Shown piece by piece: positions 18,445 to 59,841 of a DNA stretch of 64,000 nucleotides. This DNA comes from Gelidibacter japonicus (GTDB taxonomy: Bacteria > Bacteroidota > Bacteroidia > Flavobacteriales > Flavobacteriaceae), in contig NZ_BJKB01000004.1 of the NCBI RefSeq assembly GCF_010725055.1, positions 124,001 to 188,000 of the forward strand, given 5' to 3'. The notes under the pieces are model-generated. The model did not search any database, was not told the DNA's origin, and worked only from the letters and a program-made list of their open reading frames with translations. A program made the translations under genes and the position numbers. The number at the start of each line of letters is the position of its first letter. Position 1 is the first letter of the stretch.

Positions 18445-18460
18445 CCCTGCCTTCGCAGGG
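18445..18460. repeat. CCTGC-type hairpin abutting atpH start
   Basis: Perfect stem CCCTGC / GCAGGG with tetraloop CTTC. It ends 6 nt before the atpH ATG (18467), inside the essential atp operon, where the ribosome-binding region should be. The same motif lies in this position before three other genes of the window. Confidence 0.9.
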
Positions 18461-18466
18461 AGTAAT

Positions 18467-19003
18467 ATGGCACAAACAAGAACAGCAATTCGTTATGCAA
18501 AAGCAGTTTTAGATCTTGCTAAAGACCAAAAGTCGGCAGAGATTGTCAATGCTGATATGAAATCCATTGCTAATGCTGTAGAAGCCAGTACAGAATTAAA
18601 AGACATGCTTTTAAGTGCTGTAATACCTGTAGCAACAAAAAAGTCGGCGTTATTGGCAATTTTCAAAGACCTAAACAAGTTAAGTTCAGGGTTGATTAAT
18701 ACGTTAATTGAAAATAAACGTATCGACATCTTAGGTGAGGTTGCCCAAAAATTTACAGAGCTTTATAACGAAAGTCAGGGCAAGCAAGTTGCAAAAGTGA
18801 CTTCGGCGGTAGCCTTAACTGATGCGCTTAAAGCGAAGGTATTGGCCAAAGTAAAAGAGCTTACGGGCAAAGAAGCTGATATTGTAAATATCGTAGATGA
18901 ATCCATTTTAGGAGGTTTCATTTTACGGGTCGGAGATATTCAGTACGATGCAAGTATTGCAAACAAATTAAATAAGTTAAAAAGAGAATTTACATTAAAC
19001 TAA
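18467..19003 (+). CDS. atpH: F-type ATP synthase subunit delta
   Basis: A 178-residue delta (OSCP) subunit that ties the peripheral stalk to the top of F1. The N-terminal six-helix domain (RTAIRYAKAVLDLAKDQ) and the C-terminal signature ILGGFILRVGDIQYDASI near residue 148 are clear. Its ATG is only 6 nt beyond the end of a GC-rich hairpin, so its translation may be coupled to atpF or tuned by the hairpin. Confidence 0.95.
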   Translation: MAQTRTAIRYAKAVLDLAKDQKSAEIVNADMKSIANAVEASTELKDMLLSAVIPVATKKSALLAIFKDLNKLSSGLINTLIENKRIDILGEVAQKFTELYNESQGKQVAKVTSAVALTDALKAKVLAKVKELTGKEADIVNIVDESILGGFILRVGDIQYDASIANKLNKLKREFTLN

Positions 19004-19013
19004 AGAGTTGGAA

Positions 19014-19031
19014 ATAGAGGGCTACCCTCTA
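19014..19031. repeat. Hairpin between atpH and atpA
   Basis: Stem TAGAGGG / CCCTCTA with tetraloop GCTA, 28 nt before the atpA ATG and 10 nt after the atpH stop. Short repeats of the type CTAAC/TCTAATA follow it. Confidence 0.75.
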
Positions 19032-19059
19032 ACGTCTAACCTCTAATATCTAATAGAAA

Positions 19060-20640
19060 ATGGCAGAAGTAAAACCAGCTGAAATTTCAGCAATCTTAAA
19101 GCAACAATTGTCAGGATTTGAAGCTAGTGCTTCATTGGACGAAGTAGGAACGGTATTGACTGTTGGAGATGGTATTGCCCGTGTTTACGGCTTGGCAAAC
19201 GTCCAATATGGTGAATTGGTTGAATTTGCAGATGGTCTTGAAGGCATCGTATTGAATCTTGAAGAAGATAACGTCGGTGTTGTATTGTTGGGACCGGCAG
19301 TAGGTATCAGCGAAGGTTCTACCGTAAAACGTACAAAGCGCATTGCCTCCTTAAAAGTGGGTGAAGAAATCGTTGGACGTGTTGTGGATACTTTAGGAAC
19401 TCCGATTGATGGAAAAGGTCCTATTGGTGGAACGCTTTATGAAATGCCATTAGAACGCAAAGCTCCTGGGGTTATTTACCGTGAACCGGTAACTGAGCCA
19501 TTACAAACGGGTATCAAATCTATTGATGCCATGATTCCTGTTGGTAGAGGACAACGTGAGTTGGTTATTGGTGACCGTCAAACCGGTAAAACAGCCGTTT
19601 GTATTGACACCATTATCAATCAGAAAGAATTTTATGATGCAGGTCAACCTGTATATTGTATCTATGTAGCGGTGGGACAAAAAGCGTCAACAGTTGCTTT
19701 GATTGCAAAAACCTTAGAAGAAAAGGGAGCAATGGCGTATACAACGATTGTTGCGGCCAATGCATCCGATCCTGCTGCCATGCAAGTGTATGCACCGTTT
19801 GCTGGCGCTGCAATTGGTGAGTATTTTAGAGATACTGGCCGTCCAGCATTGATTGTTTTTGATGATTTGTCAAAGCAAGCAGTAGCTTACCGTGAAATTT
19901 CATTATTGTTACGTCGTCCACCGGGACGTGAGGCGTATCCTGGTGACGTTTTCTATCTTCACTCAAGATTATTGGAGCGTTCAGCTAAGATTATCGACAA
20001 CGATGATATCGCTAAAGAAATGAACGATTTGCCAGATGTGTTGAAACCAATGGTAAAAGGTGGTGGTTCATTAACGGCATTGCCAATTATTGAAACACAA
20101 GCAGGGGACGTATCGGCATATATTCCTACCAACGTAATTTCAATTACTGATGGACAGATTTTCTTGGATGGTGATTTGTTTAACTCTGGTGTTCGTCCAG
20201 CAATTAACGTAGGTATTTCGGTATCTCGTGTTGGTGGTAACGCCCAGATTAAGTCTATGAAGAAAGTAGCTGGTACCTTAAAATTAGATCAAGCGCAATT
20301 CCGTGAATTGGAAGCGTTCGCTAAGTTTGGCTCTGATCTTGATGCAGTGACCTTAAATGTGATTGAAAAAGGTAGACGTAACGTTGAGATATTGAAACAA
20401 GCTCAAAACGATCCATTTAAAGTTGAAGATCAGATTGCCATCATTTATGCAGGATCTAAAAACTTATTGAGAGATGTACCTGTTGAAAAAGTAAGAGAAT
20501 TTGAACGCGATTATTTAGAGTTCTTAAGAGCTAAGCACAGTGATACATTGGCAGCTTTAAAGGCAGGAAAACTAACTGATGAGATTACTGATACACTGGC
20601 AGCGGTGGCTAAGGAATTATCGGCGAAGTTTCGTAAATAA
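19060..20640 (+). CDS. atpA: F-type ATP synthase subunit alpha
   Basis: A 526-residue alpha subunit, a non-catalytic nucleotide-binding subunit of the F1 hexamer. Visible are the beta-barrel N-domain ([22 protein letters not shown]), the P-loop GDRQTGKTA near residue 170, and the alpha signature [14 protein letters not shown] near 383. The partner beta and epsilon genes (atpD, atpC) are not in this window; Bacteroidota normally keep them in a separate locus. The 152-nt gap to atpG carries inverted repeats. Confidence 0.97.
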
Positions 20641-20644
20641 AACG

Positions 20645-20778
20645 AAGTATTAAGTACAGAGTACCAAGTATTAAGTACAGCGTATGAAGATTGAGAGATA
20701 AAATTTTAGATCTCATTTATAAGGTCAACTATTAGAAAGTATTTTTTTGTTAGTCTTAATACTAACATCTTAATACTT
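20645..20778. repeat. Direct and inverted repeats in the atpA-atpG gap
   Basis: AAGTATTAAGTACAG occurs twice in tandem (20645-20659 and 20666-20680). Its complement CTTAATACTT lies at 20769-20778, just 14 nt before the atpG start, and a separate hairpin GTTAGT / ACTAAC spans 20749-20766. Long-range pairing could fold the whole gap and cover the atpG initiation region. Confidence 0.75.
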
Positions 20779-20792
20779 AATACTAACAAAAA

Positions 20793-21653
20793 ATGGCAAA
20801 CTTAAAAGAAATACGTAACAGAATTACATCGGTGTCTTCCACTATGCAGATCACTAGTGCCATGAAAATGGTATCTGCTGCTAAGCTGAAGAAAGCACAA
20901 GATGCAATTACTGCTATGCGTCCGTATTCTGATAAATTAACGGAATTATTACAAACCTTAAGCGCAACTTTAGATGCCGATTCGGGAAGTGAATTTGCGG
21001 AACAGCGTGAGATCAAAAATGTCACTTTGGTATCCATTACGTCCAACAGAGGTTTGGCCGGAGCATTCAATTCAAATATTATCAAGGAAACCAATCGTTT
21101 AATCAAAGAAGAGTATGCAGGTAAGAATGTCTCTGTTTTTGCAATAGGGAAAAAAACCAGTGATGCTTTCAAGAAAGGCAATCGAGTAATTGCCAACAAA
21201 AGCGATATTTATGACGATTTAACTTTTGACAATGTTGCTGAAATTGCCGATTTGCTGATGGATCATTTCTTGACCCATAGAACGGATAAAATAATTTTGG
21301 TATACAATAAGTTTAAGAATGCGGCGACTCAAGAGATCATGAGCGAGCAGTTTTTGCCGATAGTTCCGATGAAAGGTGCTGAAGAAGTGGACACCGATTA
21401 TATTTTTGAGCCTTCAAAAGCAGAAATTGTCAAGGAATTAATCCCAAAATCTTTAAAGACACAGCTTTATAAAGCTCTTAGAGACTCTTTCGCTTCAGAA
21501 CACGGCGCTCGTATGACTGCGATGCATAAAGCAACAGATAACGCCACAGAATTGAGAGATCAATTGAAATTAACTTATAACAAAGCACGTCAAGCTGCCA
21601 TTACTAATGAAATTTTAGAAATTGTTGGTGGGGCGGAAGCGCTAAATAATTAA
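20793..21653 (+). CDS. atpG: F-type ATP synthase subunit gamma
   Basis: A 286-residue gamma subunit, the rotating central shaft. The N-terminal helix (LKEIRNRITSVSSTMQITSAM) and the C-terminal helix ending in NEILEIVGGAEAL form the coiled coil inside F1; SNRGLAGAFNSN lies in the Rossmann-like domain. It is the last gene of the operon: a CCTGC hairpin starts 10 nt after the stop and a strong intrinsic terminator follows. Confidence 0.96.
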   Translation: MANLKEIRNRITSVSSTMQITSAMKMVSAAKLKKAQDAITAMRPYSDKLTELLQTLSATLDADSGSEFAEQREIKNVTLVSITSNRGLAGAFNSNIIKETNRLIKEEYAGKNVSVFAIGKKTSDAFKKGNRVIANKSDIYDDLTFDNVAEIADLLMDHFLTHRTDKIILVYNKFKNAATQEIMSEQFLPIVPMKGAEEVDTDYIFEPSKAEIVKELIPKSLKTQLYKALRDSFASEHGARMTAMHKATDNATELRDQLKLTYNKARQAAITNEILEIVGGAEALNN

Positions 21654-21662
21654 ACACACGGA

Positions 21663-21680
21663 TTCCTGCGCAGGCAGGAA
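21663..21680. repeat. CCTGC-type hairpin after atpG
   Basis: Stem TTCCTGC / GCAGGAA with loop GCAG, 9 nt after the atpG stop codon and upstream of the terminator. Confidence 0.85.
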
Positions 21681-21691
21681 CCTCGTAATTT

Positions 21692-21726
21692 AAAAGCCTT
21701 ACTTTCCAAAAGTGAGGCTTTTTTTC
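21692..21726 (+). terminator. Intrinsic terminator of the atp operon
   Basis: A 12-bp stem (AAAGCCTTACTT / AAGTGAGGCTTT, one G-T pair), loop TCCA, then a run of T's to 21726. A good rho-independent terminator downstream of atpG. Confidence 0.88.
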
Positions 21727-21805
21727 TTCCATTACCGCCACAGAATTGAGCGTTCAGCTCAAATTCACCTACATCAAAACCTTTTTTCGGCCCAAAAACT
21801 TTTCA

Positions 21806-21833
21806 TGTAACATTTTAATGATTTTGTGTCTAA
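21806..21833 (+). promoter_or_regulatory. ECF-sigma-type promoter of hydrolase/sigma operon
   Basis: TGTAAC at 21806-21811, exactly 16 nt, then GTCTAA at 21828-21833: the classical ECF layout (AAC-type -35, GTCTAA-type -10). It is 25 nt before the hydrolase ATG and differs from the housekeeping TAnnTTTG promoters of the window. Autoregulation by the sigma factor encoded in the same operon is the simplest reading. Confidence 0.6.
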
Positions 21834-21858
21834 AGGTAAAATCAATTAAATATACGTC

Positions 21859-22701
21859 ATGAAAACAATTAAAAACTATGTATTGGCGATTATCAGTCTC
21901 GTCATTTTCTCAGCATCTGGCCAAAACAAAGCATTCGAAGTCAGTATTGTTGGAACAGGTGATCCCATTCTATTCTTTCCTGGATTTACATGCCCCGGAG
22001 AGGTTTGGGAAGATGTGGTTGCTGAGTTATCAAAATCCAACACCTGTCATGTCTTTACCTTCGCTGGATTTGGAACTGTACCAGCCATAGAAAGGCCATG
22101 GTTGCCAAAGATTAAAGAAGGCATCTCCCAATACATCTCAGAAAACCAATTGCAAAATGCGACCATTGTGGGTCATAGTCTGGGCGGCACCTTGGGCCTC
22201 TGGCTGGCTTCTGATGACCTCTTTGATTTTAAAAAGATCATTGTTGTAGATGCATTACCTTCGACAGGTGCATTAATGATCCCTAATTTTGATAGTGAAA
22301 CCATGGTTTATGACAATCCCTTCAATCAAAATTTACTAACTATGGATGATGCCCAATTTGGGATTATGGCAAGCCAAATGGCCTCCGGAATGGTATTGAA
22401 TAAGAACAAACATGAACAAATTAAAAAATGGATTTTGCAAACCGATCGTGAAACCTATGTTTACGGATATACTGATTTGCTTAAATTAGATCTAAGGGAA
22501 GCTGTCGCAAACATTACGGTTCCGGTAACCATTTTAGCAGCAACCCAACCTTATGGCGAGACATCCGTCAAGACCATTTATGAAGAACAGTACAAAAACC
22601 TGAAAGGCTATACCATTAAATATGCTGCTGATGCTGCCCATTTCATCATGTACGATCAACCGGACTGGCTTTTAACGAACATCTCTCAAGCACTTCAATA
22701 A
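21859..22701 (+). CDS. Secreted or periplasmic alpha/beta hydrolase
   Basis: A 280-residue protein with a signal peptide (cleavage near ASGQN) and an alpha/beta-hydrolase fold. The oxyanion region is FFPGFTCPG near residue 38, the nucleophile elbow GHSLGG gives Ser near residue 107, an acid candidate follows in the C-terminal half, and the catalytic His is in AAHFIMYDQPD near 264. The substrate is unknown (ester, lactone or similar). It is the first gene of an operon with an ECF sigma factor (3-nt spacing) and a membrane protein, so it may be part of an envelope-stress response. Confidence 0.85.
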   Translation: MKTIKNYVLAIISLVIFSASGQNKAFEVSIVGTGDPILFFPGFTCPGEVWEDVVAELSKSNTCHVFTFAGFGTVPAIERPWLPKIKEGISQYISENQLQNATIVGHSLGGTLGLWLASDDLFDFKKIIVVDALPSTGALMIPNFDSETMVYDNPFNQNLLTMDDAQFGIMASQMASGMVLNKNKHEQIKKWILQTDRETYVYGYTDLLKLDLREAVANITVPVTILAATQPYGETSVKTIYEEQYKNLKGYTIKYAADAAHFIMYDQPDWLLTNISQALQ

Positions 22702-22704
22702 CCA

Positions 22705-23193
22705 ATGACAACACAAGAGAAAGCGTTTGAAGAGATTTACAGGACCAATTATCCAAAGGTGTTCCGACTTTGCTTAGGTTACACCAATGGCGATGATGCA
22801 TTGTCAAAAGATTTGGCACAGGAAATCTTTATCAAGTGCTGGCAAAATAGGCAGTCGTTCCGAAATGATGCCAAGGTCTCGACATGGATATACAAAATTG
22901 CAGTAAATACCTGTCTTCTTGAATTACGCAAGAAAAAAACAGTGCCAATTACTGATCATCTAAAACATTTGGAGGCATCTGAAGACAGCGCTTCTGTTTC
23001 AAAAGAATTCCAGTTACAGCAATTGTATCAGTGTATCGGGAAATTGAATACCCACAATAAAACCATTATTTTATTGGAATTGGAAGGTTTGCCCCAAAAG
23101 GAGATTGCCGAGATAATGGGACTAAGCCATGAAGCCATTAGAGTAAGAGTCCACAGAATAAAAAATGAATTAACTCAATGTGTTAAAAAATGA
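22705..23193 (+). CDS. ECF-type RNA polymerase sigma factor
   Basis: A 162-residue sigma factor with region 2 (DLAQEIFIKCWQNRQSF near residue 38, binding core polymerase and the -10) and region 4 (LELEGLPQKEIAEIMGLSHEAIRVRVHRIK near 125, a helix-turn-helix for the -35). Regions 1 and 3 are absent, as in all ECF factors. It starts 3 nt after the hydrolase and overlaps the next gene by 4 nt (ATGA), whose membrane product is the likely anti-sigma factor. An ECF-like promoter stands upstream of the operon. Confidence 0.93.
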   Translation: MTTQEKAFEEIYRTNYPKVFRLCLGYTNGDDALSKDLAQEIFIKCWQNRQSFRNDAKVSTWIYKIAVNTCLLELRKKKTVPITDHLKHLEASEDSASVSKEFQLQQLYQCIGKLNTHNKTIILLELEGLPQKEIAEIMGLSHEAIRVRVHRIKNELTQCVKK

Positions 23194-23756: not shown

Positions 23757-23894
23757 AAGAAGAGTCCCAAAATAGTGGAGGCATTGCCGTTGCAATGATG
23801 GTGTTTGATGCAATTTACTTTAAATATAGTGGATTAGTAAAAGCACGATCGGGACGCTCTCGCGAGTGGGAATCATTAGTATTGAAGCCATCAG

Positions 23895-23941: not shown

Positions 23942-23966
23942 ATGATTTCCCAAGCATTTTTATACT

Positions 23967-24250: not shown

Positions 24251-24814
24251 TCAACCATAATAACGAAAAACAACAATATCGTCCAATAATCCTTTTTCGT
24301 CAGCATAATCTGCGGCACTGCTATAAGCATAATCTTAAGCTCTATAGACCAATCCGGCCACCACTGGATTCTGGTGTATATACTTTATTTTTTCCCAAAT
24401 AACCGCATTGCTCCATAACTCAATAGGCTTATTGTCGTGTCTCCAAAATTGAAACCTTTTCACATTGGATGCTTTTGCCCCAGCTTTTTCAAATTGCGCC
24501 AAAAGAAACTCCTTGCGACTCTCTATTGAATTTTGCTGAATGGCCTTCACTAGTGCTTTACTTGTAAAGCGTTTAAAATCTCCTAAAAGTAGTGCGGGAT
24601 GCTGACCTTTTATACTTCTAAAAACTAAGTGCATATGATTGGTCATAATGCACCACGCAATTATCTCCATCCCTTTCTCTTTCTGGCAAAATGTAAGGCT
24701 TTGCAATAAAATTTCTTTGTATTCAATTCGGGTAAAAACATGGAGCCATGCCACAACGGCGAAGTTCACAAAATATAAACCTTCAGGATTATGGAATTTA
24801 TAGTTACGGCTCAT
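24251..24814 (-). pseudogene. RAYT transposase with in-frame premature stop
   Basis: From the ATG at 24814 the frame encodes a Y1 HUH transposase of the IS200-like/REP family: the metal-binding HUH pair is HMH in WCIMTNHMHLVF near residue 57, and the family C-terminal motif is IKYIHQNPVVAGLV, containing the catalytic Tyr candidate near residue 147. The frame stops at 24335 (TAA) after 159 residues, but the same frame continues for 27 more codons with clearly homologous sequence ([15 protein letters not shown]) to a TGA at 24251. A single change (GAA to TAA) therefore truncates it. The shortened protein keeps HUH and Tyr and might still work. Otherwise it is a decaying gene. Confidence 0.82.
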
Positions 24815-26865: not shown

Positions 26866-26898
26866 AGACCTGACAGGTTTTTAAAACCTGTCAGGTCT
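26866..26898. repeat. 33-bp palindrome family, copy 3
   Basis: Perfect palindrome, arms AGACCTGACAGGTTTT / AAAACCTGTCAGGTCT, between the divergent ABC exporter and dus genes. Confidence 0.92.
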
Positions 26899-33208: not shown

Positions 33209-33350
33209 ACCTTTAGGTTCAGCGTAGCTAATCTCATGTTGAAGAAGACGAGGTATCGATATTGCAGCTTTTTATACGGATAACAATAAAAGGTAATAAT
33301 TGGAATTTGAATTACAATAAATTTAGAAAATAAGTTTAACCAAAATAGAT

Positions 33351-33366
33351 ACCTGCCTTCGCAGGT
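33351..33366. repeat. CCTGC-type hairpin abutting nucleotidyltransferase start
   Basis: Stem ACCTGC / GCAGGT with tetraloop CTTC, ending 8 nt before the ATG at 33375. The loop and placement match the hairpin before atpH. Confidence 0.9.
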
Positions 33367-33374
33367 AGTTACAT

Positions 33375-34394
33375 ATGAAAATAATAGTTCCCATGGCAGG
33401 ACGTGGTTCACGTTTGCGCCCACACACATTGACAGTTCCAAAACCATTAATACCGGTAGCGGGTCAACCTATTGTCCATCGTTTAGTGAAAGATATTGCC
33501 AAAGTTTTAAATCAACCTATTGATGAGATTGCCTTTATTCTTGGTGATCCGGCCTTTTTTGGAAATGATGTGGTTAAAAGTTTATCGGAATTGGCCACAG
33601 AACTGGGTGCCAAGGCATCCATCTATCGACAAGATCAACCTTTGGGAACAGGACACGCCATTATGTGCGCCAAGGAATCGCTTTCAGGACCTGCAGTAAT
33701 TGCCTATGCAGACACCTTGATTAGAGCTGATTTTAACTTGGACCCTGAAGCTGATGCCGTGATTTGGGTGAAGCAGGTGGATGAACCAGAAGCTTATGGT
33801 GTGGTCAAATTGAATGACAAAAAAGAAATTGTAGAGCTTGTTGAAAAGCCTAAGGACTTTGTAAGTGATTTAGCTGTTATTGGAATATACTACTTTAAGG
33901 ATGTGAACGTTCTTAAACAGGAGCTGCAAGTTGTTTTGGATAATAATATTGTCCATGGTGGTGAATATCAAATCAATGATGGGATCAAGGGCATGATGGC
34001 TAAAGGCAAAGTGTTTAAAACCGGCGAAGTTGAAGAATGGATGGACTGTGGCAATAAAGCCGTTACCGTGGAAACAAACACCAGAATGTTAGGGTTTTTG
34101 CAAGCTGATGGTGAAGAACAGATGGTGGCAGGTTCGGTAAGCTTAGAAAACTCAAAGATTATTAAGCCCTGTTTTATTGGAGAAAATGTCGTCTTAAAAA
34201 ATGCCACTGTAGGTCCTAATGTGTCCATTGGAAACAATTGCACCATAACGGATGCCACCATAAAAAATAGCTTGATACAAACAAACAGCATCATAAAAAA
34301 TGCTAATTTAGACGAAGCAATGATTGGTAATCATGTGCATTATGATGGTCATTTTAAAACGATTAGTATTGGGGATTATTCTGATCTATCCTAA
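33375..34394 (+). CDS. Sugar-1-phosphate nucleotidyltransferase
   Basis: A 339-residue enzyme that joins a sugar-1-phosphate with an NTP. The N-terminal Rossmann domain opens with the signature IVPMAGRGSRLRPHTLTVPK and contains PLGTGHAIMCA and a VEKPKD motif; the C-terminus from about residue 250 has left-handed beta-helix hexapeptides (CFIGENVVLKNATVGPNVSI). The closest well-known families are RmlA/GlmU-like thymidylyl- or uridylyltransferases, but neither the sugar nor the base is certain. It lies between two near-identical hairpin repeats, in an envelope-gene cluster. Confidence 0.9.
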   Translation: MKIIVPMAGRGSRLRPHTLTVPKPLIPVAGQPIVHRLVKDIAKVLNQPIDEIAFILGDPAFFGNDVVKSLSELATELGAKASIYRQDQPLGTGHAIMCAKESLSGPAVIAYADTLIRADFNLDPEADAVIWVKQVDEPEAYGVVKLNDKKEIVELVEKPKDFVSDLAVIGIYYFKDVNVLKQELQVVLDNNIVHGGEYQINDGIKGMMAKGKVFKTGEVEEWMDCGNKAVTVETNTRMLGFLQADGEEQMVAGSVSLENSKIIKPCFIGENVVLKNATVGPNVSIGNNCTITDATIKNSLIQTNSIIKNANLDEAMIGNHVHYDGHFKTISIGDYSDLS

Positions 34395-40925: not shown

Positions 40926-41002
40926 AAATTCCTGCGCAGGCAGGTATCTTAGTAATTTCAAGGCCTATCTACAACTTGTATCTACTTTAAATTCATTTTT
41001 AA
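40926..41002. repeat. 77-bp direct repeat, copy A
   Basis: Begins AAATTCCTGCGCAGGCAGG and continues to ATTCATTTTTAA. It matches 41542-41618 at all but about four or five positions with no gap. The first 19 nt contain a CCTGC hairpin. Confidence 0.9.
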
Positions 41003-41027: not shown

Positions 41028-41047
41028 GTCCCTGCCTTCGCAGGGAC
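41028..41047. repeat. CCTGC-type hairpin
   Basis: GTCCCTGC / GCAGGGAC with tetraloop CTTC, 26 nt after direct repeat A. A half copy (ACTGCGAAGGCAGGAATC) follows about ten nucleotides downstream. Confidence 0.88.
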
Positions 41048-41160
41048 TGGGCTTTATAACTGCGAAGGCAGGAATCTCTTGTTATAATAACATCATGAAT
41101 ATTAAGATGCTCAAAATCAGGATAGGAAACCTTTTAGGTTTATCGGTGATAGTCTAATAC

Positions 41161-41193
41161 AGACCTCTCAGGTTTTTAAAACCTGAGAGGTCT
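41161..41193. repeat. 33-bp palindrome family, copy 4 (covarying arms)
   Basis: Perfect palindrome AGACCTCTCAGGTTTT / AAAACCTGAGAGGTCT. Both arms differ from the other copies at the same paired position (G in CTGTCAGG replaced by C, matched by the complementary change), so the base pair is kept. Confidence 0.92.
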
Positions 41194-41541: not shown

Positions 41542-41618
41542 AAATTCCTGCACAGGCAGGTATCTTAGTAATTTCAAAGCCTATCTCCAACTTGTATCTA
41601 CTTTGAATTCATTTTTAA
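41542..41618. repeat. 77-bp direct repeat, copy B
   Basis: Second copy of 40926-41002, same orientation, 616 nt downstream. Small changes (for example GCGCAGG to GCACAGG) weaken its hairpin. Confidence 0.9.
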
Positions 41619-41650: not shown

Positions 41651-41683
41651 AGACCTGTCAGGTTTTTAAAACCTGACAGGTCT
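41651..41683. repeat. 33-bp palindrome family, copy 5
   Basis: Perfect palindrome AGACCTGTCAGGTTTT / AAAACCTGACAGGTCT, ending 7 nt before the trpS stop codon (minus strand), so it could act as its transcript end. Confidence 0.92.
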
Positions 41684-41689: not shown

Positions 41690-42658
41690 CTAATAACCCA
41701 ACTTTTTGCGAACCCGTGCCAAGACCTCATCAGCGACAATTTTGGCCTTTTCAGCACCAACCGCAAGCGCTTTATCTATCTCTTCTAAATGGGTCATATA
41801 ATAATGATAGCGTTCACGTGGGGTTTCAAATTTTGTAAGAATCAATTCATATAAAGCCTGTTTGGCATGCCCGTAACCATAATTACCTTGCTCATAATTT
41901 TGCTTCATGGTCTGAGTTTCCTCGTCAGAAGCCAATAAACTATAAATTGCAAAACAATTGCAGGTGCTCCAATCTTTTGGGTCTTCTAATGGTGTGCTAT
42001 CCGTTTCAATGGACATAATTTGCTTCCGCAACTGTTTTTCAGGTAAAAATATATTGATAAAATTGCTGTTGCTTTTGCTCATTTTGGTACCATCAGTTCC
42101 GGGAACAAGCATGGTGTTTTCTTGAATTCTGCCTTCAGGCATCACAAATGTTTCGCCCAATTTAGCATGAAAGCGGGACGCCACATCACGGGTCATTTCA
42201 ATATGCTGCAATTGGTCTTTTCCTACCGGAATAATTTCGGCATCATACAATAAAATATCGGCAGCCATTAGCATAGGATAGGTAAATAAACCTGCATTCA
42301 CGTCCTCAAGACGGTCAGCTTTATCCTTAAAACTATGCGCCAGGGTCAGGCGTTGGTACGGAAAGAAGCAGCTTAAATACCATGAGAGTTCTGTGGTTTG
42401 AGGAACATCACTTTGACGGTAAAAGACTACTTTGTCAATATCCAAACCAAATGCCAACCAAGTTGCCGCAACACTGTGGGTATTATTGCGTAGGGTATCA
42501 GCGTCCTTTATTTGTGTCAAGGAATGCATATCTGCAATAAATAGAAATGAATTATTTTTAGTATCATTCGCCATGTCGATTGCCGGCATGATCGCTCCTA
42601 AAATATTTCCTAAATGTGGTGTGCCGGTACTTTGTATGCCTGTGAGTATTCTTGCCAT
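41690..42658 (-). CDS. trpS: Tryptophanyl-tRNA synthetase
   Basis: A 322-residue class I synthetase that charges tRNA-Trp. The HIGH-type motif is TPHLGNILG near residue 14, the KMSKS motif is intact (GTKMSKSNSNF near residue 193), and VGKDQLQHIEMTRDVA is the usual tRNA/ATP contact region. A housekeeping promoter lies 48 nt upstream, and a CCTGC hairpin sits between it and the start codon, 6 nt from the ATG. Confidence 0.96.
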   Translation of the reverse strand: MARILTGIQSTGTPHLGNILGAIMPAIDMANDTKNNSFLFIADMHSLTQIKDADTLRNNTHSVAATWLAFGLDIDKVVFYRQSDVPQTTELSWYLSCFFPYQRLTLAHSFKDKADRLEDVNAGLFTYPMLMAADILLYDAEIIPVGKDQLQHIEMTRDVASRFHAKLGETFVMPEGRIQENTMLVPGTDGTKMSKSNSNFINIFLPEKQLRKQIMSIETDSTPLEDPKDWSTCNCFAIYSLLASDEETQTMKQNYEQGNYGYGHAKQALYELILTKFETPRERYHYYMTHLEEIDKALAVGAEKAKIVADEVLARVRKKLGY

Positions 42659-42664
42659 AACATT

Positions 42665-42680
42665 CCCTGCGCAGGCAGGG
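42665..42680. repeat. CCTGC-type hairpin in trpS leader
   Basis: Stem CCCTGC / GCAGGG with loop GCAG, 6 nt upstream of the trpS ATG (minus strand) and downstream of its promoter, so it is transcribed in the mRNA leader. Confidence 0.9.
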
Positions 42681-42705
42681 ATCTTTTTAATTGTTCAACG
42701 AGTTG

Positions 42706-42736
42706 CAAAGGTAATTTTTTTCAAGCAATAGCTCAA
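42706..42736 (-). promoter_or_regulatory. Housekeeping promoter of trpS
   Basis: On the minus strand, TTG (42736-42734), 20-nt spacer, TACCTTTG (42713-42706): a full match to the Bacteroidota consensus. The transcript would start near 42699 with a leader of about 40 nt. Confidence 0.75.
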
Positions 42737-43580: not shown

Positions 43581-45101
43581 CTAAAACTTAAAGCTAAATC
43601 CTGTATAAACTCCAATAAAATAAGGCCTAAAATCGCCAGAGGTATTGGTAAATGTGTTTATTTGATACTTGAACATCGGCTCAAGATTTAGCTTAAGTGT
43701 ATGTGATATGTTATAGTTAAATCCAAGTCCGAAATTGGCACTATAACTCGTGCTATTGATATTATTTGCTTCGCCCAAGAGCGATCTTTCATTATTTAAA
43801 ACAGTATAAACTTCATTGTCATTAAGGAAAAGTGTACTAAATCCTCCAATGACGTTCAGTCCAAATTTGCTATTGATAATGCTGTATTCTACTTCTAAAG
43901 GGACTTCAATATAACCAAACTGCTGTTCCAATGCACCGTTAACGTTGGAGACCATAAACTGTGGTGCCGAGTTTGAATTGATGTTTGAAGTACTCATATA
44001 TGCATCTGCTTTTCGTTGACTCGCAAAATCGATATTCTGTATTTCCTTATTGCCATAGTTTCCATTAAAACTGTTGATGTCACTAAAGGCTATGACCCCA
44101 TCGGTACTATAGCCCAAAGCCACCTTGTTAACCCCGGCTCTAATTTTGATTTTATCATTGATAGCATAACTGCCATTAATGCCATAACTCATATTGACTT
44201 CGCCGCTTTTGCTATTATTTACAAATTGACTGGAAATAGTAGAGCCTTTACCTAAACTGTTAAAATAAACAGGTGCCACATTTGGGGTAATGTTCCACCT
44301 GTTTGGTTGCTCTTTTTTTTCTTCTTCATTTGTCGAATTGGCTTTGGCAATAGCCTCTTCAATACTTTCTTCTTTATTGTTTAAAGCGATGATATCTTTG
44401 TTTTCTTTTATCGCTTCAGTGTCCTTTGCTAAGTTTTGATCAGTAACCTTAGCAATCAGGGATTGATCTTTCTCAGTTTTTAAGATAGCCTTGTTCTTTT
44501 CATTATATAGTTCTGTAGTGTTTTGATTAAGATCAGGTAGATTTGGGGTGTTTTTTGCGACAGTTTCTTCTTTGATGTTTGAAACAGGCGACTTATTATT
44601 TTTAGTGACAGTTACTTCATCTTGAAAATTGGAAGAATTTGTAGTACTTCTTCCAGAGTTCTCGTTAGCTATTTGATTAGCGGTTTTATCGCGATCGTTT
44701 AATTTCTTTTTCTGAAGGTCATTTTCGAAATTGCCACCTTCAGATTGCTCAGTATTTGCTATCGTAGTGGAAGGATCACTTTGACTCGCATTATTTTTAG
44801 TGTCATCAACACCTATTGTTCTGGTAGATTCATCCGAACCACCCGTGTTGTCTGTACCGACTACTTTGTTTTCAGGATTGTTAAATCCTTCACCACTATT
44901 AAAAACATTGCCAACGGTTAACATCAGTACCAACACGGCTGCAACACCAGCTGCAAACCACCATAAAGGAATCACGCGACGTTTGCGCTTGTCTTCATGT
45001 AATGCCTTGTGGATATTTTCCCATACAGCATCATCAGGAGTGGCTTCAAAATTTTTGAATTTCTCCTGAAAAAGGCGGTCTATATGTTTTTTATCATTCA
45101 T
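43581..45101 (-). CDS. Inner-membrane-anchored protein with C-terminal beta barrel
   Basis: A 506-residue protein in three parts. Residues 1-42 are cytosolic, charged and helical (DDAVWENIHKALHEDKRKRR); 43-63 form a transmembrane helix (VIPLWWFAAGVAAVLVLML); 64-270 are a low-complexity linker rich in Asn, Lys, Glu, Ser and Thr; and 270-506 look like an outer-membrane beta barrel that ends in the aromatic residue Phe (FIGVYTGFSFKF). It directly follows an ECF sigma gene (TAAATG, no gap). The N-terminus may act as an anti-sigma domain and the barrel as a sensor, but that is inference. Confidence 0.75.
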   Translation of the reverse strand: MNDKKHIDRLFQEKFKNFEATPDDAVWENIHKALHEDKRKRRVIPLWWFAAGVAAVLVLMLTVGNVFNSGEGFNNPENKVVGTDNTGGSDESTRTIGVDDTKNNASQSDPSTTIANTEQSEGGNFENDLQKKKLNDRDKTANQIANENSGRSTTNSSNFQDEVTVTKNNKSPVSNIKEETVAKNTPNLPDLNQNTTELYNEKNKAILKTEKDQSLIAKVTDQNLAKDTEAIKENKDIIALNNKEESIEEAIAKANSTNEEEKKEQPNRWNITPNVAPVYFNSLGKGSTISSQFVNNSKSGEVNMSYGINGSYAINDKIKIRAGVNKVALGYSTDGVIAFSDINSFNGNYGNKEIQNIDFASQRKADAYMSTSNINSNSAPQFMVSNVNGALEQQFGYIEVPLEVEYSIINSKFGLNVIGGFSTLFLNDNEVYTVLNNERSLLGEANNINSTSYSANFGLGFNYNISHTLKLNLEPMFKYQINTFTNTSGDFRPYFIGVYTGFSFKF

Positions 45102-48908: not shown

Positions 48909-48914
48909 AATAGA

Positions 48915-54256: not shown

Positions 54257-54264
54257 TTTAGATT

Positions 54265-56583
54265 ATGGCAAAAAAGAAAGCTGACACCCAAGATTTTTCC
54301 AAATATATCAGATGGTTTTGGTTGACCATTGTAGGAGGCGTATTATTAGTTGTTTTTGTTTTTTTATTGGCTTCATGGGGTGTTTTTGGTGAAATGCCAG
54401 ATCATACGCGATTGGAAAATCCGACGACCAATTTGGCTACTGAAATTATTTCTTCAGATGGCGAATTAATTGCAAAAATATATCATAATGATAACCGTAC
54501 TCCAGTAGAATACTCAGACTTGCCCCAGCATTTGGTCGAGGCGTTAATTGCTACTGAAGATGTGAGATATAGAGAGCATTCCGGAATTGATGCTAGAGGC
54601 ACGTTAAGGGCTATATTTACCTTAGGAAAGGGCGGTGGTGCCAGTACGATTTCCCAGCAATTGGCAAAACAATTATTTCATGGCGAAGGCTCAAAGGACA
54701 TTTTGGGTAGAATTACCCAAAAAGTTAAGGAATGGATCATTGCCATCCGTTTGGAACGCCAATACACCAAAGAGGAAATAATTGCCATGTACTTCAATAT
54801 CTATGATTTTGGAAATAATGCTGCCGGGATTCGTAGTGCGGCCAGAATTTATTTTGGGAAAGAGCCTGTGAATTTGGATATTAAGGAATCGGCCATGTTG
54901 GTTGGGATGTTTAAAAACTCATCACTTTATAATCCAAGGCCAGCTTGGAATCCTGTAGGTACCAAGAATCGTAGAAATGTGGTGCTTTATCAAATGGAGA
55001 AGTACGGTTTTATCGATGAAACCGCAAAAGATTCGCTAAGCAAGTTAGATCTAAGCTTGCGTTATTCGCCAGAATCGCATCGTGAAGGTTTGGCCACCTA
55101 TTTCAGGGCTTATCTTACTGAGTTTATGAAAGATTGGATCAAAAACAATCCAAAGCCCGATGGTACCGGACGTTATAGTTTGTATGATGACGGACTGAAA
55201 ATCTATACCACCATTGATTCCCGTATGCAGCAATATGCAGAGGATGCTGTCCACGAACATATGGCTCGTTTACAAGCCGAATTTTTTCATCAAAATACTC
55301 CTGATCGAAACAAAACGGCACCATTTTTAGATTTAAAACCAGATGAAATCTCAAGTCTTCTCAACAGAAGTATGCGTCAATCTGAGCGTTGGCGAAAAAT
55401 GAAAGCTAACGGCAAGAGTGAAAAGGAAATTTTGGCATCATTTGATGTGCCCACACCAATGACCGTGTTCTCATGGAAAGGCGAGATCGATACGATTATG
55501 AAACCCGCAGATTCCATGCGTTATTATAAATCATTCCTACATGCTGGTATGATGTCCATGGAACCCCAAACCGGTCACGTAAAAGCTTGGGTGGGCGGTA
55601 TTAATTACAGACATTTTCAATATGATCATGTAAAACAAGGAAAACGTCAAGTTGGATCTACCTTTAAGCCTTTTGTTTATGCTACGGCCATTGACCAATT
55701 GCATTTGTCGCCTTGTGACACGTTTCCAAATACAAAAATAACTATTGAAGCCGGCAAATATGGCAATCCGTTGCCATGGAGCCCTGATAACTCTGATAGA
55801 AAGTATGGTGGATTCAGAACTTTAAAAAACGCCTTGGCTAACTCAATCAATACCATAACCGCACGACTTATGGATAAGGTGGGTCCACAACCTGTAATTG
55901 ATATGGCAAAAAACTTGGGAATTGAATCCGAAATCCCCCCAGTTCCTGCCATTGGATTGGGAACACCAGATTTGAGTGTTTATGAAATGGTAGCCGCTTA
56001 TGCCACATTTGCCAATAAGGGCGTCTATACTAAGCCGGTGATGGTGATGCGTATAGAAGATAAAAATGGCACCGTCCTCTACCAATTTACTCCAGAAACA
56101 AAAGATGTGCTGAGTGAAGAGGTGGCTTATGTGACCACTAACCTTCTGGAAGGAGTCACCCAATCTGGCTCAGGAGCTCGTTTAAGAACAGTAGGTGCTG
56201 AGAAATGGAACCCTGTGTACAAAGAAATCATGACAGGCTATCCTTATGCGTTTACAAACCCTATTGCCGGAAAGACTGGAACCACCCAAAACCAAAGTGA
56301 CGGATGGTTTATTGGGATGGTACCCAACTTGGTCACAGGCGTTTGGGTTGGAGGCGAGGAACGTGCCACCCGTTTTAGAAGTCTTGCCTACGGACAAGGG
56401 GCCTCGATGGCCTTGCCGATTTGGGGGCTTTATATGAAAAAATGTTATGCCGATAAAAATCTTGATGTGTCCACGGGCGAATTTGAACGTCCTGAAAATC
56501 TTTCCATAAATGTAGATTGCAGTAAGAAGGCTGATGACACGTCATCTGATGCTGACGGCATTGATGATCGTCTGGATTTTTAA
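54265..56583 (+). CDS. Bifunctional penicillin-binding protein 1A
   Basis: A 772-residue class A PBP: an N-terminal transmembrane helix (residues 18-40), a GT51 glycosyltransferase domain (EDVRYREHSGID near residue 100, GASTISQQLAKQLFHG near 130), and a transpeptidase domain with the catalytic Ser in STFKP near residue 464, SxN in ANSIN near 525 and KTGT near 672. It makes and crosslinks peptidoglycan at the inner membrane. It is the third gene of the ricT-gldH operon, ending in a strong terminator. Confidence 0.95.
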   Translation: MAKKKADTQDFSKYIRWFWLTIVGGVLLVVFVFLLASWGVFGEMPDHTRLENPTTNLATEIISSDGELIAKIYHNDNRTPVEYSDLPQHLVEALIATEDVRYREHSGIDARGTLRAIFTLGKGGGASTISQQLAKQLFHGEGSKDILGRITQKVKEWIIAIRLERQYTKEEIIAMYFNIYDFGNNAAGIRSAARIYFGKEPVNLDIKESAMLVGMFKNSSLYNPRPAWNPVGTKNRRNVVLYQMEKYGFIDETAKDSLSKLDLSLRYSPESHREGLATYFRAYLTEFMKDWIKNNPKPDGTGRYSLYDDGLKIYTTIDSRMQQYAEDAVHEHMARLQAEFFHQNTPDRNKTAPFLDLKPDEISSLLNRSMRQSERWRKMKANGKSEKEILASFDVPTPMTVFSWKGEIDTIMKPADSMRYYKSFLHAGMMSMEPQTGHVKAWVGGINYRHFQYDHVKQGKRQVGSTFKPFVYATAIDQLHLSPCDTFPNTKITIEAGKYGNPLPWSPDNSDRKYGGFRTLKNALANSINTITARLMDKVGPQPVIDMAKNLGIESEIPPVPAIGLGTPDLSVYEMVAAYATFANKGVYTKPVMVMRIEDKNGTVLYQFTPETKDVLSEEVAYVTTNLLEGVTQSGSGARLRTVGAEKWNPVYKEIMTGYPYAFTNPIAGKTGTTQNQSDGWFIGMVPNLVTGVWVGGEERATRFRSLAYGQGASMALPIWGLYMKKCYADKNLDVSTGEFERPENLSINVDCSKKADDTSSDADGIDDRLDF

Positions 56584-56610
56584 AACCTTCATGTCATCAT
56601 ATTACAAAAT

Positions 56611-56643
56611 AAAAAACGGTAAGTCTTTCTTGCCGTTTTTTTT
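56611..56643 (+). terminator. Intrinsic terminator after PBP1A
   Basis: 12-bp stem AAAAACGGTAAG / CTTGCCGTTTTT (one G-T pair), loop TCTTT, T run. It closes the ricT-gldH-PBP1A operon. Confidence 0.9.
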
Positions 56644-56789
56644 GTATGTGTCAGAATAGACAAGGCTTACTAAATCAATGACAATTCCCTAAAGGTAAAT
56701 GATTTTGAATAGTCACACCTTGAACCCTCTCAAATCATTTTAGATTGACTATTTAATTTCGTAATTTTAAAACTACAAAAATAAGACTC

Positions 56790-57491
56790 ATGATTAATAA
56801 AAAAGTAGCAAACGTTACGGAAGCCATGCAAGGGGTTAAAGACGGTATGACCCTTATGGTGGGTGGTTTCGGGCTTTGTGGAATTCCTGAAAATGCCATT
56901 AATAACCTCGTGAAAATGAATGTGAAGGGACTCACTTGTATTTCCAATAATGCTGGGGTGGATGATTTTGGTTTGGGTTTGTTATTGCATAAGCGCCAGA
57001 TTAAAAAAATGATTTCTTCTTATGTGGGCGAAAACGACGAGTTTGAACGGCAAATGCTCAGCGGAGAACTAGAAGTGGAGTTGGTGCCACAAGGCACACT
57101 TGTGGAGCGATGTAGAGCGGCGCAATCTGGCTTCCCCGCCTTTTTTACCCCTGCCGGATATGGAACCGAGGTAGCAGAAGGAAAGGAAATCCGCGAGTTT
57201 AACGGAAAAATGTATGTTTTAGAAAAAGCATTTGAGGCAGATTTTGCATTCGTCAAAGCGTGGAAAGGAGATGCCGCTGGCAATTTAATATTTAAAGGGA
57301 CCGCCAGAAATTTTAATCCCTCCATGTGTGGCTCCGCTAAAATCACAGTTGCTGAGGTTGAAGAATTGGTTCCTGTTGGAAGTTTGGATCCCAATCAAAT
57401 CCATATTCCGGGAATATTTGTCCAACGTATTTTTCAAGGTGAAAAATATGAAAAGCGAATTGAACAATTAACGGTTAGAAAGAGGGTATAA
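56790..57491 (+). CDS. scoA: 3-oxoacid CoA-transferase subunit A
   Basis: A 233-residue alpha subunit of the succinyl-CoA:3-oxoacid (or acetoacetate) CoA-transferase. The N-terminal [19 protein letters not shown] is the CoA-binding glycine loop, and [20 protein letters not shown] near residue 116 is a family mark. It acts with the beta subunit in the cytosol, moving CoA between acids in ketone-body or short-chain fatty acid use. The beta gene starts 129 nt later, with a hairpin in the gap. Confidence 0.93.
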
Positions 57492-57570
57492 GTAAAATTG
57501 TTAAGATTTTATCATTCATAAAATATAGCTTTGAATTGAAAAACGAAGAAATATTGCAATAAATTCATGA

Positions 57571-57602
57571 TTCCCTCCCGATAGTTATCGGGATCGCGGG
57601 AA
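57571..57602. repeat. Hairpin between scoA and scoB
   Basis: Outer TTCCC / GGGAA and inner CCCGATAG / TTATCGGG arms. It ends 18 nt before the scoB ATG and resembles the hairpin before dut. Confidence 0.75.
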
Positions 57603-57620
57603 TGAAATAACTTTAAAAAA

Positions 57621-58274
57621 ATGTTAGACAAAATAGGAATTGCAAAGCGCATAGCGCAAGAAGTTCAAGATGGGTATTATGTCAACTTAGGCATAGGCAT
57701 CCCAACTTTGGTTGCCAATTATGTAAGAGACAATATAGAAGTTGAATTCCAAAGTGAAAATGGCGTTTTAGGCATGGGGCCTTTCCCTTATGAAGGAGAA
57801 GAAGATGCAGATCTCATCAACGCAGGTAAACAAACCATCACTACCTTGCCTGGAGCCAGCTTTTTTGACTCCTCATTGAGCTTCTCAATGATTAGGGGAC
57901 AACATGTGGATTTGACGATATTAGGCGCTATGGAGGTGTCTGAAGAAGGTGATATTGCCAATTGGAAGATTCCGGGTAAAATGGTGAAAGGCATGGGAGG
58001 TGCCATGGATTTGGTTGCCAGTGCCAAAAACATCATTGTCGCCATGATGCATACCAATAAAGCAGGGGAATCCAAATTATTGAAAAAATGTAGCTTACCA
58101 CTTACGGGTGTGGGATGTGTAAAAAAGATCGTGACCAATTTGGCTGTTTTGGAGGTTACTGAAGATGGATTTAAACTGTTGGAACGCGCTCCGGGAATAT
58201 CCGTTGAAGATATCAAAAAGGCTACCGAAGGCAAATTGATTGTAGAAGGAGAGATTCCCGAGATGGTCTTATAG
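57621..58274 (+). CDS. scoB: 3-oxoacid CoA-transferase subunit B
   Basis: A 217-residue beta subunit. The catalytic Glu sits in the family motif [12 protein letters not shown] near residue 49, and GLGIPTL-type sequence ([14 protein letters not shown]) near residue 23 opens the CoA site. It forms the heterotetramer with ScoA. An unusual hairpin in the 129-nt gap may set the ratio of the two subunits. Confidence 0.94.
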
Positions 58275-59106
58275 AAGATAGACTACATTTAGGATTTTCA
58301 GCCACGACTACACGAATTCAATCATTATTGGAACTTGTGTACTAGTGGTTTTTTTTATTTTCATAATTGACATTTGATCAAGTAGTTAGGTAGAGATTTT
58401 ATAAAAAAAGGAATTTTTGGGTGCTCTGGGTAGTGTGGTTTAAAGATGTATTGATCAACCATAAGAATCATCAGTTTACGGACATTAATACTTGTAAGAT
58501 TATTCTTAGTAACTATGGTTAAATGTTAAATAAAAATGTATTTCATCGAATAATTATGATTTTAAACTGATTTATTCAAAAAAAGTTACATATTTACAAA
58601 ACCTAATTAAAACAAACCAATTAACCGAATTTACCATAAACCTAACTTATGATTAGCCCCAAATCTACCATAATTTTTGACTTATGAATACCGCTCCAAA
58701 TCTACCAAAACCTACATTATCTGAAAGCAAATTATTTGAGACCTTTCAAAAAACATTAAAATTACTTAAAGGTATTTTAATGCTCACAAAAAAGATATTC
58801 ATGCTTTAACCCAAGCCCCAGGGGCAAAGCATGAATTTTTTGTGAGGAATTTCACACCCTTAGGCTCCAAAGTTATTTTGTGGATCTCACGCAGATCATG
58901 GTATTAAGAGATGACAGAATATTTCCCCACAATTTTGCGAGAGAAATTTGCTACATCCTCTTTAAATTCTTTTTTAAATGTTTGCTACGAAAAGTTTTTT
59001 AGCATCTTAAAATTTGAGCAAATGCTCAAGAGGAATTACAGCATCAATTGACGATTATTATTAGAATACGGTTCTGCGAGAATGAGCCACTTTTACGGGA
59101 GACTAT
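58275..59106. other. Non-coding 832-nt stretch with long hairpin
   Basis: No convincing gene. A short direct repeat (CTTATG...CCAAATCTACCA; 58646 and 58681) is followed by a 42-codon frame (58684-58809) that runs into the left arm of a long hairpin at 58783-58846. A 16-nt palindrome TTGAGCAAATGCTCAA lies at 59014-59029. The stretch may be the remnant of a mobile element. Confidence 0.6.
58783..58846. repeat. Long hairpin, about 21-bp arms
   Basis: CTCACAAAAAA-(GAT)-ATTCATGCTTT pairs with AAAGCATGAATTTTTTGTGAG around an 18-nt loop holding its own CCCC / GGGG pairs. The 3-nt bulge is the only flaw. This is the longest stem in the window. Confidence 0.88.
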
Positions 59107-59820
59107 TCAAATATGTTTAATCTCACTGTTATCCAAAATTGAATCTCCACGCAATCTTAAGAAGATTTGTGCCACTGCAATCGTATCTTTTTCGCAATAG
59201 ACAACGATTCGGTCAATATCATTATCCTCATAATATACTCTTCGTACTTCACTTCCATCTATATCATCCTTAGGTGAGGGAATCCCGAGCACGTTGGTCA
59301 ATAATTTTAATGAGGTATAGTTTTTATAATCGCCAAATTTCCATAAATCCATGGTATCCAAATGCGGAACTTCCCATGGTTTTTTACCAAAGAGATTCAA
59401 TTTATAGGGCAATTCGATATTGTGAATGATCATACGCCTTGCGATATATGGAAAATCAAATTCCTTCCCATTATGGGCGCACAATAAATGTTTGGCTTGA
59501 CTAAAATGAGAAATGACTAAATGTTTAAAATCCTTGAGAATTTTGGTCTCATCACCATAAAATGAGGTTACTCTAAATGTCCTGATATCGCCTTGAAATT
59601 TAAAATATCCTACTGAAATACATATAATTTTTCCAAACTCGGCCCAAATGCCTGCACGTTCATAAAAATCTTCCGCAGAAATATCTGCTCTTTGGTATTT
59701 GGATTTGAGTTCCCAAAGGTCTTGTTTGATTTTGTCTAAATCTGAGAAATGACGGGTTTCTGGAACCGTTTCAATATCCAGGAATAAGATGTCTTCGAGA
59801 TTGAGTTTGCTGATCATCAT
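59107..59820 (-). CDS. 3'-5' exonuclease (PolB-like, RNase H fold)
   Basis: A 237-residue protein of the predicted 3'-5' exonuclease family related to DNA polymerase B proofreading domains. The DEDD acidic residues appear in LFLDIETVPE (D14, E16), HNGKEFDFPYIARR near residue 116 and YCEKDTIAVAQIF near residue 210. It has no polymerase domain. It follows the serine hydrolase by 61 nt on the same strand, and a hairpin lies 3 nt from its start codon. Confidence 0.85.
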   Translation of the reverse strand: MMISKLNLEDILFLDIETVPETRHFSDLDKIKQDLWELKSKYQRADISAEDFYERAGIWAEFGKIICISVGYFKFQGDIRTFRVTSFYGDETKILKDFKHLVISHFSQAKHLLCAHNGKEFDFPYIARRMIIHNIELPYKLNLFGKKPWEVPHLDTMDLWKFGDYKNYTSLKLLTNVLGIPSPKDDIDGSEVRRVYYEDNDIDRIVVYCEKDTIAVAQIFLRLRGDSILDNSEIKHI

Positions 59821-59823
59821 CCC

Positions 59824-59841
59824 TTCCCGCGAAGGCGGGAA
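59824..59841. repeat. GC-rich hairpin abutting exonuclease start
   Basis: Stem TTCCCGC / GCGGGAA with loop GAAG, only 3 nt upstream of the exonuclease ATG (minus strand). It is the closest of the four hairpins placed at start codons. Confidence 0.9.

Follow-up and report, generated by a model that had tools for sequence, protein, structure and literature searches.

The window examined here is a 64,000-nucleotide (nt) stretch of the Gelidibacter japonicus genome (Bacteroidota, Flavobacteriaceae; contig NZ_BJKB01000004.1, positions 124,001 to 188,000), in which short GC-rich hairpins stand directly before the start codons of four genes: atpH, a nucleoside triphosphate (NTP)-sugar nucleotidyltransferase gene, trpS, and a gene for a predicted 3′-5′ exonuclease (Table 1). 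A first-pass annotation, made from the letters of the window alone, had reported stems at these four starts, and all four hairpins are indeed found there. Three of the stems are, however, one base pair (bp) longer than first stated, so that the gaps to the ATG are smaller (5, 7, 5, and 3 nt instead of the claimed 6, 8, 6, and 3 nt, the last of which agrees). The 3-nt outlier probably reflects the choice of start codon: the ATG of three Gelidibacter exonuclease orthologues aligns with codon 2 of the window open reading frame (ORF), so the start is likely the second ATG, at 59817, which would give a gap of 6 nt. Upstream of trpS lies TACCTTTG, which we take to be a promoter motif of the Bacteroidota -7 type; motifs of this type are also seen before trpS in relatives, and the hairpin would thus fall within the trpS 5′ untranslated region.

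The four hairpins belong to a repeat family. Allowing up to two mismatches, CCYGCCTTCGCRGG matches nine places in the window where 0.37 are expected, a count reached in none of 100 shuffles, and four of these nine family copies are start-linked.

Table 1. Start-codon hairpins of the window, the genes they precede, and further features. Positions are those of the window.
Feature	Position	Strand	Detail
Hairpin TCCCTGC-CTTC-GCAGGGA before atpH	18444-18461	+	ATG 18467, gap 5 nt
A-rich segment plus AGA, 5′ of atpH hairpin	18432-18443	+	consensus of 57 leaders
atpH, ATP synthase delta/OSCP	18467-19003	+	PF00213; 91% identical to atpH of G. gilvus
Hairpin TACCTGC-CTTC-GCAGGTA before nucleotidyltransferase	33350-33367	+	ATG 33375, gap 7 nt
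A-rich segment plus AGA, 5′ of nucleotidyltransferase hairpin	33338-33349	+	consensus of 57 leaders
NTP-sugar nucleotidyltransferase	33375-34394	+	PF00483
Hairpin, sense TCCCTGC-CTGC-GCAGGGA, before trpS	42664-42681	-	ATG at 42658, gap 5 nt
A-rich segment plus AGA, 5′ of trpS hairpin	42682-42693	-	consensus of 57 leaders
trpS, tryptophanyl-tRNA synthetase	41690-42658	-	PF00579 (class I W and Y synthetases)
Promoter-like motif TACCTTTG upstream of trpS	42706-42713	-	
Hairpin, sense TTCCCGC-CTTC-GCGGGAA, before exonuclease	59824-59841	-	ATG 59820, gap 3 nt; probable ATG 59817, gap 6 nt
A-rich segment plus AGA, 5′ of exonuclease hairpin	59842-59853	-	consensus of 57 leaders
Predicted 3′-5′ exonuclease, DNA_pol_B_exo2	59107-59820	-	PF10108
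Family copy, not start-linked	21663-21680	-	
Family copy, not start-linked	40931-40944	-	
Family copy, not start-linked	41028-41047	+	
Degenerate family copy, not start-linked	41059-41072	-	
Degenerate family copy, not start-linked	41547-41560	-	
Y1_Tnp (RAYT-like) gene	24335-24814	-	

Across the G. japonicus genome (G000), the core pattern with at most one mismatch has 101 matches, and a backward control pattern has none. The surroundings of 100 of these copies were inspected, with start linkage judged from open frames and not from annotation. In 24 of the 100, an ATG opening an ORF of at least 80 amino acids (aa) lies 5-12 nt past the core end on the sense strand, which carries the CTTC loop, whereas no such ATG lies 5-12 nt away in antisense; with tandem copies left out, the counts are 24 of 83 in sense and 0 in antisense. 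When the element is put at every intergenic position of the window and of 400 kb of hand-picked stretches, random placement yields 1.64% start linkage, or 1.6 expected copies, and the binomial P for 24 is about 4e-21. The genome-wide histogram of distances to start codons, which the first-pass annotation had put forward as a check, is thus not flat. The 400 kb had been taken at round coordinates chosen blind to the matches, and they hold no family hairpin before any start, which indicates that the element is sparse and clustered.

Two simpler accounts of this linkage were tried and rejected. The first, a general enrichment of hairpins before genes, fails because a strong hairpin lies within 25 nt of the start in only 19 of 348 genes of the window and the 400 kb, and the family members among those 19 are only the four of the window. 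The second, an element that supplies or targets an ATG triplet, is ruled out by the copies away from starts, of which only 3 of 70 have an ATG at 5-12 nt, compared with 6, 10, and 11 of 70 in three intervals farther off (in the reverse direction an ATG at 5-12 nt is seen for 10 of 70, none of these beginning an ORF of 80 aa or more). ATGs are therefore scarcer near these copies than at a distance, and the link is to real start codons rather than to ATG triplets.

A covariance model extends the picture beyond the pattern. It was trained on 63 leaders (24 from G. japonicus and 39 from other genomes), one row of which (L230) is misaligned by one base, and it ends two bases past the stem, which leaves out the ATG. 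With matches taken at E up to 1 and the best 150 of 2442 first-look candidates scored, at least 140 matches are found in the genome, all of them placed. Among the 140 matches listed, 39 have the ATG of an ORF of 80 aa or more in sense 3-10 nt past the end of the stem, the sense strand being in every case the one with the pyrimidine loop, and none is start-linked in antisense; the gap is 5 nt in 13 of the 39 and 6 nt in 16 (29 together). An obgE-like leader on contigs C18 and C20 is counted twice in the 39; the same leader stands at C18:64897 and C20:31376, as a duplication or an assembly effect. Copies already found by the pattern make up 95 of the 140 matches listed, with 5 of the 100 pattern copies falling outside them, and the other 45 are new. 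Fifteen of these 45 are start-linked in sense and none in antisense, most of them with other stems, including five with CCCAC/GTGGG (thyA, metF, and hisG among them) and two with CCCAT/GTGGG; one of the 15 (C9) spans 52 nt and includes an insert. Start-linked matches per block of 20 listed matches, from the highest scores down, number 11, 10, 5, 4, 4, 4, and 1, a crowding at the top that is in line with the training of the model on such copies.

The start-linked genes of G. japonicus include, besides the four of the window, hisS, argF, argH, leuB, leuD, trpG, trpB, trpA, hemE, hemH, an ftsL-like gene, thyA, metF, hisG, fixH, and obgE, where the names of genes outside the window are presumed from their N-termini. 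Start linkage recurs in other genera. One such genome (G168) has the exact core in 39 copies, and of the 30 copies examined 13 fall 5-12 nt before a start and none has an antisense start within 12 nt. Moreover, 7 of 23 start-linked genes from other genera (ftsL-like, argH, leuB, fixH, metF, hisS, and thyA) are orthologous to the 30 G. japonicus entries of the same scan, which include one gene twice; about 0.2 would be expected by chance, assuming some 4000 genes in the genome. Three of the seven, metF, hisS, and thyA, have a different stem, and the nucleotidyltransferase hairpin occurs in two further genera. A family-wide pattern search covered 199 genomes and placed the sense pattern before an ATG in 43 and a reversed-loop control in 30, a contrast that is weak alone, the control matches having had no ORF check and many of them reading GGAATCTCATG. 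Of 30 sense loci, one per genome and counting G. japonicus and G168, 22 lead into an ORF of 80 aa or more. One genome of the same genus (G013) has no exact pattern match, yet carries trpS and nucleotidyltransferase hairpins with other stems or loops. Orthologues in at least 3 of 13 compared genomes exist for 35 genes of the window, five of which have a start hairpin by threshold in two or more genomes: the four described here and the gene at 43581-45101, whose TGCGA stem is unrelated.

The trpS hairpin is present in all nine Gelidibacter, clear in G024 and G028, and weak in G006, while the remaining 18 of the 30 loci compared lack a GC hairpin of this kind. In the 12 sequences that have it, to which the covariation analysis was confined, 92.9% of cells pair, four of seven base pairs have changed on both sides, and slid structures reach a covariation score of at most 0.201, compared with 0.387 for the hairpin. 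The atpH alignment (8 loci, 6 distinct rows) shows two pairs changed on both sides, CCTGC/GCAGG vs. CCCAC/GTGGG; it leaves out all other genera and two Gelidibacter without this stem, one of which has a second hairpin type and the other no hairpin. CCCAC/GTGGG with the atpH loop is rare, occurring at 13 places in seven of nine Gelidibacter. The trpS, atpH, and nucleotidyltransferase sets were not chosen by pattern, and their structures were derived from the same sequences; the rows of the leader consensus and of the model were mostly pattern-chosen, so that their loop and core conservation is partly by construction. Many leaders (e.g., L167, L169, and L174) have an A·C mismatch near the stem base (GATACC...GGCA), which alternates with T-A and C-G.

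The second hairpin type is itself a repeat. Its CTTCGGAAAGGATTTAGGATAGG-type motif, with up to three mismatches, occurs at 17 places in five of nine Gelidibacter (two matches for a backward control), and at 6 of the 17 the motif ends 1-6 nt before an ATG that opens an ORF of at least 60 aa. It precedes the nucleotidyltransferase gene in G199, atpH in G200, and a thiolase gene in G205. These observations suggest that some hairpin has been kept or regained at several starts while its sequence was exchanged. In six leaders (L269, L270, L272, L276, L279, and L282) the second repeat ends in TTAGGRATAGG or GGATAGG, 1-6 nt before the start; the genes concerned are those for the nucleotidyltransferase, atpH, and thiolase, along with others.

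The leaders share a common architecture. Past the stem come a C-poor spacer and the ATG, and in an alignment of 57 leaders the positions after the core show no T-run of the kind that marks an intrinsic terminator. Six folded leaders have the hairpin in both the minimum free energy (MFE) and the centroid structure, and the AUG is unpaired in the predicted atpH and nucleotidyltransferase folds. Adenine at -3, -6, -12, and -13 favors initiation in Flavobacterium johnsoniae, Bacteroidota ribosomes sequester the anti-Shine-Dalgarno (anti-SD) sequence on the platform, and bS1 has been proposed as the reader (excerpts of PMC6847099 and PMC9976891). In 37 start-linked leaders, -9 to -20 is mainly hairpin with few adenines. 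Removal of 18 nt in silico raises the adenine fraction at -9 to -14 from 0-0.35 to 0.54-0.70, and 260 other genes have an adenine peak of 0.57, 0.53, and 0.47 at -11 to -13. Once the hairpin is removed, the A-rich segment overlaps, as a broad stretch, the adenine peak of other genes, as would be expected of a split site. The adenine fraction upstream is also lower at non-start than at start-linked copies (0.41 vs. 0.59, P 1e-7).

We tentatively favor a reading of the start hairpin as a conserved cis-acting translation-initiation leader of Flavobacteriaceae, a split ribosome-binding site with a looped-out hairpin, and rate it just short of even on the sequence evidence. Such a leader would consist, in order, of an A-rich single strand ending in AGAU, a GC-rich hairpin of 5-7 bp with a pyrimidine-rich loop, a C-poor spacer, and the AUG. 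The folded hairpin would be looped out on the side of the 30S platform where the mRNA exits, roughly at the place that the SD:anti-SD helix takes in other bacteria, and the loop-out would bring the upstream A-rich segment, which sits near -12 in other genes of the clade, to its usual distance from the AUG, where bS1 or the platform might read it. The role of that segment as a ribosome-binding determinant rests on the F. johnsoniae work (excerpts of PMC6847099). Unfolding of the stem would shift the segment by about 18 nt and so misplace it, and selection would then keep the pairing while the sequence of the stem drifts or is exchanged. The hairpin might raise or lower initiation, and it may have originated from a dispersed palindromic repeat.

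The idea of the first-pass annotation that a mobile hairpin family was kept as a translation element divides into two parts. The translation element is well supported by sequence, through the fixed spacing, the single orientation, the attachment to real starts, the paired changes at trpS and atpH, and the recurrence in other genera. The mobile origin is plausible, in keeping with dispersed copies and tandem arrays. The other suggestion of that annotation was that the loop or tail could itself act as the start signal. Such arrays lie at C1:86909-87773, C4:61758-62361, and C13:85937-86468 of the G. japonicus genome, with periods near 135, 129, and 158 nt.

Several observations count against a conserved initiation leader. 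The nucleotidyltransferase stem hardly varies and gives no covariation. The argH hairpin is found by threshold in only 5 of 30 loci and the element is missing in two of nine Gelidibacter; at leuB the hairpin appears by threshold in 3 of 30 loci, two of the three with another pairing, and the core is intact in only two of nine Gelidibacter; and the exonuclease hairpin is present in two of five genomes. In the predicted folds of the trpS and exonuclease leaders, weak helices take up part of the AUG or spacer; the folding energies of whole leaders are unremarkable (z -0.2 to -1.7); and the A-rich stretch obtained after removal is broad (-9 to -20) and does not match -11 to -13 sharply. Reporter output in Prevotella fell to about one fifth when a -5.2 kcal/mol hairpin stood in the SD region, but was not reduced by a hairpin at -21 (excerpts of PMC3155529); the drop suggests that a start hairpin here could repress. 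Finally, the paired changes may represent replacement by another copy of the family and not in-place mutation. The repeat family has many members with CCCTGC stems and many with CCCGC stems, and the G. japonicus genome contains multiple copies of CCCAC/GTGGG with a TTTC loop; because this stem exists in many copies with another loop, the paired change at atpH is weaker proof of in-place mutation, and insertion without benefit gains as an explanation. In several Gelidibacter leuB leaders (L346-L354), the 5′ arm of the hairpin could instead pair with a GAAGGTAGGG-type stretch lying upstream, and two competing hairpins are then predicted, in the manner of an attenuator.

Among the alternatives, the hairpin with its AGAU and pyrimidine loop could be an RNA operator that binds a protein or a small RNA and co-controls biosynthetic genes. 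AGAT precedes 20 of the 22 start-linked hairpins among the 30 one-per-genome loci, pyrimidine loops recur, and the genes include arg, leu, trp, and his genes, thyA, metF, folP, trpS, and hisS (most named from N-termini). AGAT is, however, not special to the start-linked class (59 of 76 non-start vs. 20 of 24 start-linked copies), loop and stem vary at trpS, and the functions of the genes are mixed. The window also contains no Rfam family at gathering score; at E up to 1, with the atpH and trpS sites searched, there is no match at the former and two at the latter that lie far below their gathering scores. We consider an operator unlikely, though worth serious attention.

A neutral insertion bias, by which a dispersed palindromic repeat inserts, or is tolerated, in one direction before starts without benefit, is in our view slightly less probable again. 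It would account for the dispersed copies and tandem arrays having the same core, for the polymorphism at argH and the decay at leuB within the genus, and for the other hairpin repeat before the nucleotidyltransferase, atpH, and thiolase genes of some species, and the different stems at one gene could then be repeated replacements by family copies. It does not lead one to expect a trpS hairpin in every Gelidibacter and in other genera, or recurrence at the same genes, and the copies away from starts argue against it twice, in that they are A-poorer upstream and rarely have an ATG at the start-linked distance, so that the triplet is not what is targeted.

Another possibility, which we hold to be doubtful, is that the hairpin itself serves in cis as an SD-like helix, a gene-portable initiation signal for bacteria that lack Shine-Dalgarno recognition. 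The hairpin would here fill the space on the 30S platform that is freed by anti-SD sequestration, with its 5′ arm in the place of the anti-SD and its 3′ arm in that of the SD. Docking of this kind is inseparable by sequence from the loop-out. An SD-like 3′ arm as the main signal was set aside on account of the inconstancy of that arm (GCAGGTA, GTGGGAA, GCGGGAA).

It is quite improbable that the hairpin is an mRNA stability or processing element of operon junctions, with start proximity as a side effect. Known repetitive extragenic palindromes (REPs) protect upstream mRNA, which speaks for such a role, and 16 of the 24 start-linked pattern copies sit within 200 nt past a co-directional open frame of 80 codons or more. 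The distance back to the end of the upstream frame is variable, however, at 26 to 186 nt, whereas the start mostly lies 5-6 nt ahead, and trpS has a promoter-like motif of its own. Chance or coding coincidence can be dismissed, since the binomial P and the one-sided orientation (24 vs. 0 by pattern, 39 vs. 0 among the model matches listed) far outweigh the fact that short stems are common, as the 19 of 348 genes with a strong hairpin near the start illustrate.

RNA thermometers and protein-operator hairpins at starts either bind a known factor or cover the start region. The leaders described here resemble them in placing structure at the initiation region and differ in that the hairpin stops short of the AUG; among the four predicted window folds, two leave the AUG free and two pair it in part. 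A closer parallel to the favored split site is found in genes 25 and 38 of bacteriophage T4, where a hairpin between the upstream determinant and the AUG cuts the effective spacing from 22 to 5 nt and from 27 to 11 nt, respectively, and aids initiation (excerpts of PMC3014915). Whereas the T4 sites are two single genes that use a Shine-Dalgarno sequence, the sites here, in bacteria in which SD use is rare, combine an A-rich segment with a shared hairpin family at dozens of unrelated housekeeping genes of marine flavobacteria, seen in sequence only. As in the Kozak-like leaders of F. johnsoniae, A stands at -3 and an A-rich segment lies upstream; unlike those weakly structured leaders, a stable hairpin occupies the place of -12 and -13 (excerpts of PMC6847099).

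As a repeat, the family is reminiscent of the CGTC-tagged REP, a short dispersed palindrome with A-T pairs at the stem base and a loop of 4-5 nt that also occurs in Bacteroidetes (excerpts of PMC3733652). Both are short palindromes with A-T pairs at the base of the stem, 4-5 nt loops, and many dispersed copies, and neither, the CGTC-tagged REP in the excerpts of PMC3733652, has been found to flank genes of REP-associated tyrosine transposases (RAYTs). A RAYT link was indeed rejected here: the genome has seven Y1_Tnp matches, and no family hairpin (up to two mismatches) lies in the 3.2-3.3 kb around any of them. The two differ in that CGTC-tagged REPs, in the genomes analyzed in the same excerpts, lie near 3′ ends at varying distance from the downstream ORF, whereas one class of the present family lies mostly 5-6 nt before starts, and in that the tag is mostly missing (AATGACG in 0 and AATGAC in 2 of the 100 G. 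japonicus copies, AATGAC in 4 of 30 in G168).

Other palindromes share the window. A AGACCTGACAGGTTT-TTA-AAACCTGTCAGGTCT-type family occupies 7637-7667, 26866-26898, 41161-41193, and 41651-41683; one of these ends 13 nt short of the ORF that starts at 7681, and a copy at another place in the genome (L154) ends 7 nt before an ORF start. The palindrome TCCCGATAGTTATCGGGA, at 57569-57605, is nested in what seems to be a hairpin element of the family, and the ORF at 57621 follows after some 15-20 nt.

Among the titles and abstracts found by literature searches, none describes a start-locked hairpin family in Bacteroidota. What appears to be new, judging from sequence, is the start-locked class, which would be kin to known split or structured ribosome-binding sites; that the hairpin is a new kind of initiation signal has a smaller chance. 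How start codons are chosen without SD pairing in Bacteroidota is unsettled, and current work stresses A-rich, weakly structured leaders, a view whose emphasis on weak structure is hard to square with a recurrent hairpin at fixed distance from dozens of starts. If the favored split site is correct, a dispersed palindrome family would have been recruited to translation throughout a bacterial family, and the hairpin leader would offer a portable part for expression design in flavobacteria.

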